Shown piece after piece: positions 38,842-52,777 of a stretch of 64,000 nt of DNA. The notes beneath the pieces were generated by a model. That model was not told the DNA's origin. It searched no databases and saw nothing but the letters and a program-made list of their open reading frames with translations. This DNA comes from Rhizobium subbaraonis (lineage in GTDB: Bacteria > Pseudomonadota > Alphaproteobacteria > Rhizobiales > Rhizobiaceae), in the NCBI RefSeq assembly GCF_900220975.1, contig NZ_OBQD01000003.1, positions 310,001 through 374,000 of the forward strand, written 5' to 3'. How positions within the stretch are numbered: the stretch's first letter is position 1; every line of letters starts with the position of its first letter. Both the position numbers and the translations under genes were made by a program.

Positions 38842-39360
38842 TCAGTTGTTGCCGAAGGCGGTGTGCAGCAGGCTCAACTGCGCCTGGACGCTGTTCTGGT
38901 TATCGTTGACGAAGCTCTGCGTCTCCTGCGGGCGATAGACCTCGCGGTCGAGCAGGGCAACGCGGTTCTGCAGCCGCAGCGAGCGCTCGATCAGATCGAG
39001 GAAGGCTTCCGGCAGTTCGTTCCAGCCGGGAGCGGCACGGTCGACGTTGAACCCGTCGAGGCGAACCTTGCTCTTTTCGGAAATCACCTGGTCGCGCGTC
39101 ATTTCGCCGTTGTTGACGGCGCGCTGCAGCAGCAGCCACGAGGCCATCTGCATCAGACGCGTGGTCAGCCGCATGGATTCGGCGGCGTAGAGAACCGATG
39201 CCATGCGGGGCAGCACCTTTGCTGCCTGCCGGCCCGGACCATCGAGATAGGTTGCGGTCTCTTCCACGAGGCCCATGCCTTCAGCGTAGAGATTCTTGAA
39301 CTGCGGCGAGGTGGCGGCGTGGCCAGCTAAGCTGACGGTGTTCAATCCTCTTTCAGACAT
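38842..39360 (-). CDS. rcdA: RcdA-like protein (DUF1465)
   Basis: A 172-residue helical protein of the DUF1465/RcdA family. Conserved stretches: FKNLYAEGMGLVEETATYLD, LYAAESMRLTTRLMQMASWL, LQRAVNNGEMTRDQVISEKS, and LPEAFLDLIERSLRLQNRVA. In Caulobacter RcdA is a ClpXP adaptor-hierarchy protein required for timed CtrA proteolysis. A perfect CtrA box lies 118 nt upstream (39478-39492), so CtrA control of its own degradation factor is suggested. Confidence 0.9.
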   Translation of the reverse strand: MSERGLNTVSLAGHAATSPQFKNLYAEGMGLVEETATYLDGPGRQAAKVLPRMASVLYAAESMRLTTRLMQMASWLLLQRAVNNGEMTRDQVISEKSKVRLDGFNVDRAAPGWNELPEAFLDLIERSLRLQNRVALLDREVYRPQETQSFVNDNQNSVQAQLSLLHTAFGNN

Positions 39361-39477
39361 GGCCCCATTCCTGTTTAACGCATCACAATTCAGGTAACCC
39401 GCGGACCGAACGTCTGTTCCGCCGGTCGTTTCATGCGGGCAGAATGATGCCTTAGCTGATTTCGCGCAAGCGTGATC

Positions 39478-39492
39478 TTAACAAAGGGTTAA
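39478..39492. promoter_or_regulatory. Perfect CtrA box upstream of rcdA
   Basis: TTAA-CAAAGGG-TTAA, exactly the TTAA-N7-TTAA consensus. It lies 118 nt before the rcdA start codon and 44 nt beyond the sRNA terminator T-run. Confidence 0.75.
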
Positions 39493-39535
39493 TCTCCACA
39501 ATTCTTTACAAATTTGGACAAGATGTGGAAAGCAC

Positions 39536-39639
39536 AAAAAAAAAGAGCCGCGGGAAAGCGGCTCTCAAGGTAAAACAGGGAGAAAATCAGACCCATTCCC
39601 CAAGCGGCGAAAATGTCTGAGTCCGGACTGGTCCGGGCA
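39536..39639 (-). ncRNA. Candidate CtrA-controlled small RNA (~104 nt)
   Basis: Between a CtrA-box promoter (39646-39676) and an intrinsic terminator (39544-39565 plus an eight-base T-run) lies a region with no reading frame. The predicted RNA has a 5' hairpin (CCGGA / TCCGG), a middle stem (TCAGA-CATT / AATG-GG-TCTGA), an unpaired linker TTTTCTCCCTGTTTTACC with a CUCCC anti-Shine-Dalgarno, and the terminator stem AGAGCCGC / GCGGCTCT. This three-stem layout fits a trans-acting sRNA. A known rhizobial CtrA-linked sRNA, GspR, has three stem-loops, but I cannot confirm homology. Confidence 0.65.
39544..39565 (-). terminator. Intrinsic terminator of the sRNA candidate
   Basis: Perfect 8-bp stem AGAGCCGC / GCGGCTCT with a 6-nt loop, followed on the minus strand by eight Ts. 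Confidence 0.92.
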
Positions 39640-39645
39640 TGCGAT

Positions 39646-39676
39646 TAATAGCCGATGATGCTTAACGGACGGTTAA
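39646..39676 (-). promoter_or_regulatory. CtrA-box promoter of the sRNA candidate
   Basis: A perfect TTAA-N7-TTAA (39662-39676) overlaps where the -35 would be for a minus-strand -10 CTATTA (39651 to 39646) with 17-nt spacing; the start point would be near 39639. A second -10-like CTATAT (39687 to 39682) lies upstream of the box and could drive a longer transcript. Confidence 0.6.
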
Positions 39677-39732
39677 CTCAAATATAGTTCGGTCGCGAAA
39701 CCGCACATGTCCGCCTGTAGCAAACCGGCATT

Positions 39733-39921
39733 CTAGCGAAACAGTTGCTCGGCAGCCGAGCGGCTTTTGCCCTTACGGGTGACTTCTTCTTCCAGCCGCG
39801 AGATTTCTTCCTTCAGAAGCGCAATCCGGCTTGCAAGCTCGTCCGCCGAAAGCATCGAGAGGTCGCAACCGATCTCGTGTGTCACCTTGCGTACCGGCCG
39901 GTCGTCGTCCGACATACTCAT
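39733..39921 (-). CDS. DUF1192 small protein
   Basis: A 62-residue protein of the DUF1192 family: an N-terminal acidic stretch (SMSDDDRPVRK), then LSADELASRIALLKEEISRL and a basic end. It is predicted to be a short coiled coil. ATG 39921 overlaps the stop of the upstream MFS gene by 4 nt (ATGA), so it is coupled. Function unknown. Confidence 0.88.
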   Translation of the reverse strand: MSMSDDDRPVRKVTHEIGCDLSMLSADELASRIALLKEEISRLEEEVTRKGKSRSAAEQLFR

Positions 39922-41514: not shown

Positions 41515-41600
41515 GGGCGAGGCGATCGATGCCGCTCGCCACGGCGGCTTGATCGCTTCCGCTGACGTCGTCTTGCACGATCCTCTTGCGGACAAACAAA
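41515..41600. other. Intergenic, no feature seen
   Basis: Nothing recognisable between the small membrane protein and the minus-strand terminator at 41601-41621. Confidence 0.5.
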
Positions 41601-41621
41601 AGGGCCGCACCAGGCGGCCCT
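41601..41621 (-). terminator. Intrinsic terminator of the 24-codon ORF
   Basis: Perfect 8-bp stem AGGGCCGC / GCGGCCCT with a 5-nt loop, followed on the minus strand by TTTGTTTGTC. A further hairpin TGAGCC / GGCTCA lies at 41649-41664, between the small ORF and this terminator. Confidence 0.8.
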
Positions 41622-41677
41622 CCATGAGGTTTGGCTCTGTGACAAGCCTGAGCCTATGGGCTCAAGGAAGGTGTGGT

Positions 41678-41752
41678 TCAGAACGAGGGCTGCCTCGCTC
41701 CCACCATCGCATTTCCCACTGCCGTCACGAGGTCCGAAATCTCATTAGACAT
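41678..41752 (-). CDS. Candidate 24-residue peptide
   Basis: ATG 41752 is preceded by an excellent ribosome site (GGAAGGTGATCC) and encodes MSNEISDLVTAVGNAMVGAR then QPSF. A terminator lies 57 nt downstream and a possible promoter upstream. The peptide has an amphipathic central part. No homologue is known to me; it may be a leader peptide, toxin-like peptide or small regulator. Confidence 0.5.
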   Translation of the reverse strand: MSNEISDLVTAVGNAMVGARQPSF

Positions 41753-48364: not shown

Positions 48365-49375
48365 TCAGATCAGCTTCGCAAACGCGACGGCCGTGTCGGC
48401 CATGCGGTTGGAGAAGCCCCATTCGTTGTCGTACCAGGAGAGGATACGGACGAACTTGCCTTCCAGAACCTTGGTCTGGTCGATGGCGAAGATCGACGAA
48501 TGGCTGTCGTGGTTGAAGTCGCGGGAGACCAGCGGCTCCTCGGTGTAGCCCAGGATGCCCTTGAGGGCGCCGTTGGAGGCGGCCTTGATGGCTTCGTTGA
48601 TTTCTTCGACCGTGGTGTCGCGCTTGGCAACGAACTTGAAGTCGACGACCGAGACGTTCGGGGTCGGCACGCGGATCGAGGTGCCGTCGAGCTTGCCCTT
48701 CAGGTGCGGCAGGACGAGGCCGACGGCCTTGGCAGCACCCGTCGAGGTCGGGATCATCGAGAGCGCTGCCGCGCGGGCGCGGTAGAGGTCCTTGTGCATC
48801 GTGTCCAGCGTCGGCTGGTCGCCGGTGTAGGAGTGGATCGTGGTCATGAAGCCGTGGTCGATGCCGACCGCGTCATCGAGAACCTTGACCACCGGGACCA
48901 GGCAGTTGGTGGTGCACGAGGCGTTGGAGATGACCAGGTGTTCCTTGGTCAGCTTGTCGTCGTTGACGCCGTAGACGACGGTCAGGTCGGCGCCGTCGGC
49001 CGGGGCCGAGACGATGACGCGCTTGGCGCCGGCCGTCAGGTGGGCGGCCGCCTTGTCGCGGGCGGTGAAGATGCCGGTGCACTCCATGGCGATGTCGACG
49101 CCAAGTTCCTTGTGCGGCAGCGTCGCCGGGTCCTTGATCGCGGTGACCTTGATCGGCTTGCCGCCGCCGACCGTGATCGTGTCGCCCTCGACCTTCACTT
49201 CGGCCGGGAACTTGCCGTGGATCGAATCGTAGCGCAGCAGGTGGGCATTGGTCTCGACCGGACCAAGGTCGTTGATCGCCACGACCTCGATGTCGGTGCG
49301 GCCGGATTCGACGATTGCGCGCAGGACGTTGCGGCCGATGCGGCCAAATCCGTTGATGGCAACTTTTACGGTCAT
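48365..49375 (-). CDS. gap: Glyceraldehyde-3-phosphate dehydrogenase
   Basis: A 336-residue GAPDH. N-terminal Rossmann [18 protein letters not shown], then catalytic [51 protein letters not shown] and [13 protein letters not shown]. Residues after the first beta strand (AINDLGP) favour NAD use. Downstream of tkt by 66 nt. Confidence 0.97.
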
Positions 49376-49441
49376 TTCGGGTCTCTCCCTGTCAGAATAA
49401 AACGTGCGGGTGGCGCGCGGTCGCCCGCGCGCCGTCCCGGG

Positions 49442-52610: not shown

Positions 52611-52745
52611 TGCGATCTGCGCTTCCCGACAGGTATCAACATTCCCCGGGGCCATACACGATCTCAAGGGAGCTGTCCCTGTTCGGACCCGTGGGTTCGG
52701 ACATATGGCACCCACCTACTTTGTAGGCACCCGGGATCGTAAAAA
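52611..52745 (+). ncRNA. ssrS: 6S RNA (probable)
   Basis: A structured non-coding stretch downstream of zapA with -10 CTATAT at 52599-52604. A terminal stem pairs TGCGATC (52611-52617) with GATCGTA (52735-52741), and an alternative ACGATC / GATCGT. Inside are hairpins CCTAC-TTT-GTAGG (52715-52727) and GTGGGT / ACCCAC. The position behind zapA is the conserved location of ssrS, which makes the RNA that mimics an open promoter for sigma-70 polymerase. The ends are estimated. Confidence 0.65.
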
Positions 52746-52777
52746 TCCATCGGTCGCCGTGGATCGCGCTTTCTCTC
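52746..52777 (+). terminator. Terminator-like hairpin after the 6S RNA
   Basis: Stem ATCCA-CGG / CCG-TGGAT with a T bulge, followed by CGCGCTTTCTCTT. Moderate. Confidence 0.5.

Follow-up and report, generated by a model that had tools for sequence, protein, structure and literature searches.

Introduction

The closest described counterparts of the RNA studied here come from Sinorhizobium meliloti. A signal of about 80 nt, sm84, was placed between SMc03988 and SMc03989 in 2008, all three in forward orientation, and the available text of that report lists a sigma-70 promoter for it (PMC2573895). A sequenced transcript of 100 nt, SmelC671, at 2986421-2986520 on the plus strand, is listed as Sm84 in the accessible part of PMC2873474, which also gives the 6S RNA of S. 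meliloti at 2972090-2972252 on the minus strand, divergent from SmelC671 and about 14 kb away from it. According to the portion of Reinkensmeier et al. (2011) at hand, the SmelC671 family is Rhizobiales-wide, shows extensive microsynteny, and is found in Rhizobiaceae, Brucellaceae, Phyllobacteriaceae, Bradyrhizobiaceae and Methylobacteriaceae (PMC3927594). CtrA and rcdA are absent from the main text of PMC3927594, and CtrA is absent from the main texts of PMC2573895 and PMC2873474. A table of predictions for Herbaspirillum, in which CtrA does not figure, also has the name BjrC1505 (PMC6337395). The RNA has been catalogued in rhizobia, with neither a regulator nor a function given in the available texts.

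Known cell-cycle sRNAs act on ctrA or gcrA mRNA, according to the accessible parts of the reports (PMC8959179, PMC5928217, PMC7143759). For one of them, CcnA, the authors state in the available text that no homologue was clearly detected in S. meliloti (PMC8959179). In S. meliloti, a CtrA motif lies upstream of the rcdA transcription start site (PMC3616915). In addition, ChIP-seq located CtrA at the rcdA promoter region, and rcdA expression was unchanged on CtrA depletion, according to the available part of PMC4433202.

Here, we describe a locus in a window of 64 kb (the whole stretch of DNA that was analysed) from the 6.58-Mb genome of Rhizobium subbaraonis. An earlier note on this DNA had proposed that a CtrA-driven, trans-acting sRNA with an anti-Shine-Dalgarno linker is encoded next to rcdA.

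Results

An sRNA gene between DUF1192 and rcdA

The sRNA gene sits between a DUF1192 gene and rcdA, and the features of the region are as follows.

39733..39921, minus strand: DUF1192 gene, upstream of the sRNA (PF06698, 77.9 bits)
39662..39676, minus strand: CtrA box TTAACCGTCCGTTAA, a perfect TTAA-N7-TTAA, about -37 to -23 relative to the predicted sRNA start
39646..39651, minus strand: -10-like element CTATTA, read from the sequence; columns conserved 0.40-0.79
39536..39639, minus strand: sRNA gene of the BjrC1505 / SmelC671-Sm84 family; predicted start 39639, about 104 nt
39623..39636, minus strand: hairpin 1 of the predicted fold; A-U/G-C exchanges in paired positions in a 77-sequence order-wide set
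39587..39620, minus strand: hairpin 2 of the predicted fold, in the form of the window's group; changes one-sided only
39567..39586, minus strand: single-stranded linker, unpaired in the predicted fold, with CUCCCUGUU at 39582-39574
39536..39566, minus strand: intrinsic terminator, 9-bp stem and nine Ts
39478..39492, minus strand: CtrA box 2, also perfect, located past the sRNA terminator and ahead of rcdA
39370..39375, minus strand: rcdA leader motif AACAGG, a complement to the sRNA's CCUGUU and a weak one in the window species
38842..39360, minus strand: rcdA (ClpXP adaptor RcdA, DUF1465; PF07323, 197 bits; NF051867 equivalog, 206.9 bits, cut-off 170)

The RNA from 39639 to 39536 folds with -38.7 kcal/mol (z = -3.94), and none of 200 shuffles is equally stable. 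The predicted fold consists of two hairpins and a terminator, whose hairpin spans 39566-39543 and whose T run occupies 39544-39536, and it leaves CUCCC (39582-39578) unpaired within the linker. Both the discrete sRNA gene and the unpaired anti-Shine-Dalgarno linker proposed before are supported, and the identity of the adjoining gene as rcdA is confirmed by the NCBIfam equivalog. The GC stem and T run described for the terminator are present; their sizes had been given as 8 bp and eight Ts, one too few in each case. In five of six other same-genus genomes, the DNA match begins at 39679-39677, just ahead of the box, and stops at 39538-39525; in the closest same-genus genome (G005) it spans almost the whole 221-base query.

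In an alignment of 18 sequences of the window's group, the terminator is fully paired in all 18, and 94.1% of cells pair versus 26-46% when the structure is slid, the structure having been derived from the same sequences. Cells changed on both sides number 8, against 4.0 in shuffles, and only 4 of 500 shuffles reach 8. Changes in hairpin 2 are one-sided and the terminator is nearly constant. Pairs with two-sided changes number three, all of them in hairpin 1 (three of its six pairs), which is not unusual, as 213 of 500 shuffles reach three. Lack of covariation in relatives would, according to the earlier note, have spoken against the gene; covarying pairs are present and lend it modest support, their number being within the shuffle range. 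Outside the window's group, a second CUCCUGU is often seen by eye between the arms of hairpin 2 in the printed sequences. Hairpin 1 carries a GANTC (CcrM site) at its end in 47 of 220 sequences, where column frequencies predict 0.46; this lead was dropped.

The RNA is the local form of an order-wide family

In an Rfam scan, no family reaches its cut-off at the locus, and across the whole window only 6S RNA passes (52611-52769, plus strand, 79.5 bits), divergent from the sRNA and about 13 kb away from it. RF02356 (BjrC1505) scores 24.5 bits here against a cut-off of 50, with an alignment from the box to the terminator, and the locus is its top match in the genome (E 0.046). By the Rfam threshold, the window copy falls outside RF02356; its homology is supported by position and by a reciprocal profile. 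This profile, R1, is a covariance model trained on 18 sequences from the window's group. At E<=0.1 it matches rcdA loci from other families in 91 of 94 cases (missing L152, L206 and L210). RF02356 passes its cut-off at 19 of the 20 rcdA loci given, 17 from other families and 2 from the window's own family (L111 and L113, but not L068).

Of 150 genomes from the order, 128 contain RF02356, 107 of them over the cut-off. The RNA lies immediately 5' of rcdA in 118 of the 128 carrying genomes, and 118 of the 133 hits are 153-550 nt upstream of the rcdA domain on the same strand. At class level, RF02356 occurs at E<=0.01 in 27 of 190 genomes, nine of them over the cut-off, including one from the same order. 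Within the window's GTDB family, R1 matches 81 of the 91 genomes once each, directly upstream of rcdA in 79 of the 81. Eight family genomes have rcdA yet no R1 hit, four of them small (1.4-2.0 Mb); G202, G233 and G240 (loci L141, L137 and L123) still have CTCCC or a terminator ahead of rcdA and so may have escaped R1. With low-sensitivity tblastn, 68 of 178 rcdA loci showed the DUF1192 gene upstream and in the same orientation. The nearest named rcdA locus is that of Mycoplana azooxidifex (92%). A weak minus-strand R1 hit at 41593-41702 (24.6 bits, E 0.107 in the window's genome), with a hairpin and a terminator, probably arose by chance.

The sRNA is the window's-group form of an order-wide sRNA, which is BjrC1505 in Rfam and most likely Sm84/SmelC671 in S. 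meliloti, where we infer that SMc03989 is rcdA. It is a deeply conserved, mostly single-copy and already catalogued sRNA gene, and the novelty of the RNA implied earlier does not stand.

A CtrA box covers the -35 position

The 64-kb window contains just two TTAA-N7-TTAA sequences, at 39662-39676 and 39478-39492, against 0.03 expected, and none of 100 shuffles contained two. Both perfect boxes fall in the single DUF1192-rcdA intergenic region. The first covers the -35 position of the minus-strand promoter preceding the sRNA, with CTATTA at 39651-39646, and both elements are found where they had been reported. A generic sigma-70 scan of 39340-39760 found no promoter. Control of the sRNA and rcdA from one intergenic region, also suggested before, agrees with the presence of two CtrA boxes there, one per gene.

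As R1 begins two bases ahead of the predicted RNA start, the box lies outside the model, and the relatives recovered by R1 allow a box-blind count. A box with 0-1 mismatch is present within the 60 nt upstream in 86 of 89 such relatives; 34 are perfect, and 52 of the 86 lie at -36/-35. For comparison, windows drawn at random from these loci contain a box in 5 of 1297 cases. The 89 are those left of 93 after the window's two matches, L156 (cut by the contig start) and L191 (too short) were excluded. Two other counts, 149 of 178 and 74 of 79 (one, L271, being spurious), used the box and CTCCC for selection.

With a box over the -35 position that is kept in relatives, a CtrA-type promoter is strongly supported on computational grounds. 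The box equally permits repression by CtrA. The designation as a putative cell-cycle sRNA comes from the box.

The linker and the favoured reading

In 220 sequences, a set preselected for the box and CTCCC, the CTCCCTG columns are conserved at 1.00 (rounded), the next T at 0.99 and the T after it at 0.93. Among the 89 box-blind relatives, 82 contain CTCCCTGT. The core is reduced to CCUCC at three loci (L421, L422 and L370) of two genomes without detected rcdA. With two hairpins, a nearly invariant core in an unpaired linker and a terminator, the anatomy of the RNA fits trans action on ribosome-binding sites.

We favour, with a probability of roughly 0.72, a CtrA-activated trans-acting sRNA that masks the ribosome-binding sites of several mRNAs. 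In this reading, the box over the -35 position is most likely bound by phosphorylated CtrA, which activates transcription from around 39639, and the RNA would stop at its own terminator ahead of rcdA. The near-invariant unpaired CUCCCUGUU would then pair with the ribosome-binding sites of several mRNAs (complement AACAGGGAG), blocking their translation while CtrA is active. The neighbouring rcdA mRNA may be one of the targets in part of the Rhizobiaceae. Of this picture, the gene, the box, its place, the linker, the synteny and the depth of conservation are established computationally, and CtrA activation, trans action, the direction of the effect and the targets are putative. The shortened core at the three loci above, the eight family genomes with rcdA that R1 missed, and the lack of a shared conserved target in the searches below count against it.

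rcdA as a possible target

A narrower reading gives rcdA the central role. CtrA would transcribe both rcdA and the sRNA in an incoherent feed-forward loop, and the sRNA would mask the rcdA ribosome-binding site, delaying RcdA and hence CtrA proteolysis. We regard this loop as a tentative proposal that is more probably wrong than right. The candidate pairing involves AACAGGGA and UCCCUGUU, and many relatives carry AACAGGGA in the rcdA leader instead of the weak AACAGG. Across 75 named Rhizobiaceae loci, the 22-nt stretch preceding rcdA matches the CUCCCUGUU complement over at least 8 nt in 22 loci and over at least 6 nt in 51. Other ORFs of the same loci do so in 1 and 27 of 584, a contrast that is flattered because the control ORFs began at the first ATG, often not the true start. 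This bias is visible in DUF1192, whose leaders, with homology-based starts, match over at least 8 nt in 1 of 67 and over at least 6 nt in 14 of 67, compared with 27 of 584 for the other ORFs. Among 500 permuted cores, none reaches the rcdA count at 8 nt or more and two reach that at 6 nt or more. In addition, rcdA forms the best duplex of its own locus in 30 of 69 cases, against 7.7 expected.

However, these loci are relatives, and the 75 rcdA leaders comprise only 49 distinct ones, 14 of these with at least 8 nt and 29 with at least 6 nt; moreover, part of the match is the Shine-Dalgarno sequence itself. In the window species, rcdA comes 14th among 52 (-11.9 kcal/mol, z -1.05). Among 147 more distant loci (rcdA less than 67% identical, other genera of the window's GTDB family included), only 20 show a match of at least 6 nt, and 12 rcdA leaders of other families give a mean z of about 0; rcdA as a target in these more distant loci is not supported. 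The permuted-core and DUF1192 controls keep the rcdA reading alive, and part of the contrast with other ORFs came from the choice of control starts. rcdA is a candidate target in part of the Rhizobiaceae, and a weak one in the window species. A rather improbable extension is an ancestral, order-wide, CtrA-controlled sRNA locked beside the adaptor gene, which masks the rcdA ribosome-binding site in part of the Rhizobiaceae. CtrA would there switch on rcdA together with a timer restraining RcdA synthesis, and the degradation of CtrA would be delayed by an RNA.

A possible leader of rcdA

Alternatively, the RNA could be a leader or attenuator of rcdA: CtrA would drive a long rcdA transcript mostly ending at the terminator, the short RNA would be a by-product, and the linker would tune read-through. 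The position of the RNA near rcdA on the same strand in 118 of the 133 RF02356 hits fits this arrangement, as do the many more distant loci without a perfect second box before rcdA. We nevertheless consider it improbable. A separate perfect box precedes rcdA, by 109-177 nt, in all 75 named loci examined (L211-L286 without L261; the label Rhizobiaceae is taken from record names). The terminator is fully paired in every sequence of the 18-sequence alignment, the RNA of S. meliloti has 100 nt, and rcdA offers no explanation for such a conserved anti-Shine-Dalgarno core. Furthermore, the RNA and the box persist in five genomes that yielded no rcdA (G041, G074, G144, G145 and G155). Boxes are present at six of their six loci (L420-L424 and L370), three perfect and three with one mismatch; RF02356, which was used for selecting these loci, spans the box, so they are not box-blind.

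ctrA, gcrA and a genome-wide pattern

The sRNA could instead control ctrA or gcrA mRNA directly, for which CcnA, GspR and EcpR1 provide precedents among cell-cycle sRNAs. As a raw count, 5 of 25 loci, including that of the window's own genome, have a 7-nt core match in the 300 nt preceding ctrA. The target tests, which scored linker pairing, make such control quite improbable. In the 24 nt before the start of ctrA, 24 of 25 leaders match over only 3-5 nt and one over 7 nt, so ctrA was rejected as a target. For gcrA, start regions were obtained at 28 of 30 loci (two without a start found, at least one misplaced). Cognate duplexes with the region from -40 to +10 (in the window's own genome also from -150) in the own genome (z +1.13) and in 14 others (mean z +0.25) are no better than shuffles, and gcrA was rejected as well. 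Some ctrA leaders carry CTGGATCC, partly complementary to hairpin 1. On the contig of the sRNA, the ctrA gene (G000:C43:415481-416152) is about 66 kb away. By eye, many gcrA leaders (L321-L350) have GGATTC (GANTC) tens of bases ahead of the start codon.

The pattern ACAGGGAG-N4-11-ATG occurs at 28 sites in the window's genome (G000), 18 in G036, 24 in G170 and 30 in G059; the backward-pattern control occurs at 2, 1, 1 and 2 sites, respectively. Frames of at least 25 aa were compared for 98 pattern loci (L291 gave no frame), and the 12 similar pairs, with 23-38% identity, were taken for paralogues. Target prediction from the CUCCC linker, as proposed earlier, yielded no shared conserved target among the pattern loci of these four genomes and no support for ctrA or gcrA near their starts. 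Substrate-binding proteins and genes of branched-chain/propionate catabolism appear frequent among the pattern loci by eye only, and we make no claim for them. Within the window, a GAPDH-like gene on the minus strand has ACAGGGAG before its ATG (49373-49392, L354), complementary to the sRNA core.

An MmgR paralogue under nutrient rather than CtrA control, suggested by RF00519, which fits the 3' half best in a relaxed Rfam scan, is very improbable and MmgR membership was dropped, since 26.8 bits is below the cut-off of 41, five copies over the cut-off lie elsewhere in the genome with a sequence that differs outside the CUCCC-like motif, and the CtrA box counts against it. Two of these five MmgR-like copies (L001-L005), L003 and L005, are about 0.2 kb apart.

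Discussion

What looks new at this locus is the near-universal CtrA box in the promoter, together with the usual place of the RNA just before rcdA. GcrX is, presumably, the name of a CtrA-dependent sRNA of the Hyphomicrobiales. A literature search for a CtrA-dependent sRNA, or for GcrX with sRNA and CtrA, returned no paper, preprints and most subscription journals being outside its scope.

If CtrA drives the sRNA, the order of rhizobia, Agrobacterium and Brucella would have a conserved, mostly single-copy, post-transcriptional CtrA output. This would also offer a possible reason for finding CtrA at "the rcdA promoter" in S. meliloti despite an unresponsive rcdA, because binding in the rcdA region with rcdA unaffected by depletion would fit a site that serves the sRNA. 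We infer that the sRNA promoter takes part of the CtrA binding near rcdA in S. meliloti. The ChIP peak may instead belong to the box before rcdA.

Several described sRNAs resemble the window sRNA in part. MmgR (RF00519) shares an anti-Shine-Dalgarno, CUCCC-like motif and a GC-rich terminator; however, it has a different 5' half and is under NtrC/AniA control, and the window copy scores under its cut-off. GspR (SmelC775), to which the earlier note had compared this RNA, is likewise a trans-acting sRNA with three stem-loops, according to the available text of PMC5928217. In the same text, it lies at another locus, belongs to Sinorhizobium/Ensifer, has no known promoter signature and targets ctrA and cspA5. 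The window sRNA is not GspR, since the flanking genes differ and the ctrA start region is not complementary to the linker, and the comparison is best dropped.

Like the window sRNA, CcnA of Caulobacter crescentus has a predicted CtrA site in its promoter, a C-rich pairing element (CCCC) and a cell-cycle context (accessible part of PMC8959179). CcnA is encoded at the replication origin and works on ctrA and gcrA, according to the same part. Targeting of this type, by a C-rich element near the ribosome-binding site, was not seen for the window sRNA in 25 ctrA leaders or for gcrA in 15 genomes.

BjrC1505 (RF02356) occupies the same place before rcdA and is recovered reciprocally by R1; the window copy differs in scoring 24.5 bits against a cut-off of 50, and the window's group has diverged from it in hairpin 2 and in the part of the linker that precedes CUCCC. 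The sm84 signal is shorter than the sRNA predicted in the window, and its sigma-70 listing counts against the explanation that we favour; in the available texts, S. meliloti Sm84 is described with this promoter and without a link to CtrA or rcdA, unlike our reading of the window. Compared by features, Sm84 / SmelC671 / SMc06875, whose family includes R. etli ReC71, agrees with the window sRNA in place, strand, 100-nt length, terminator and synteny with 6S RNA.
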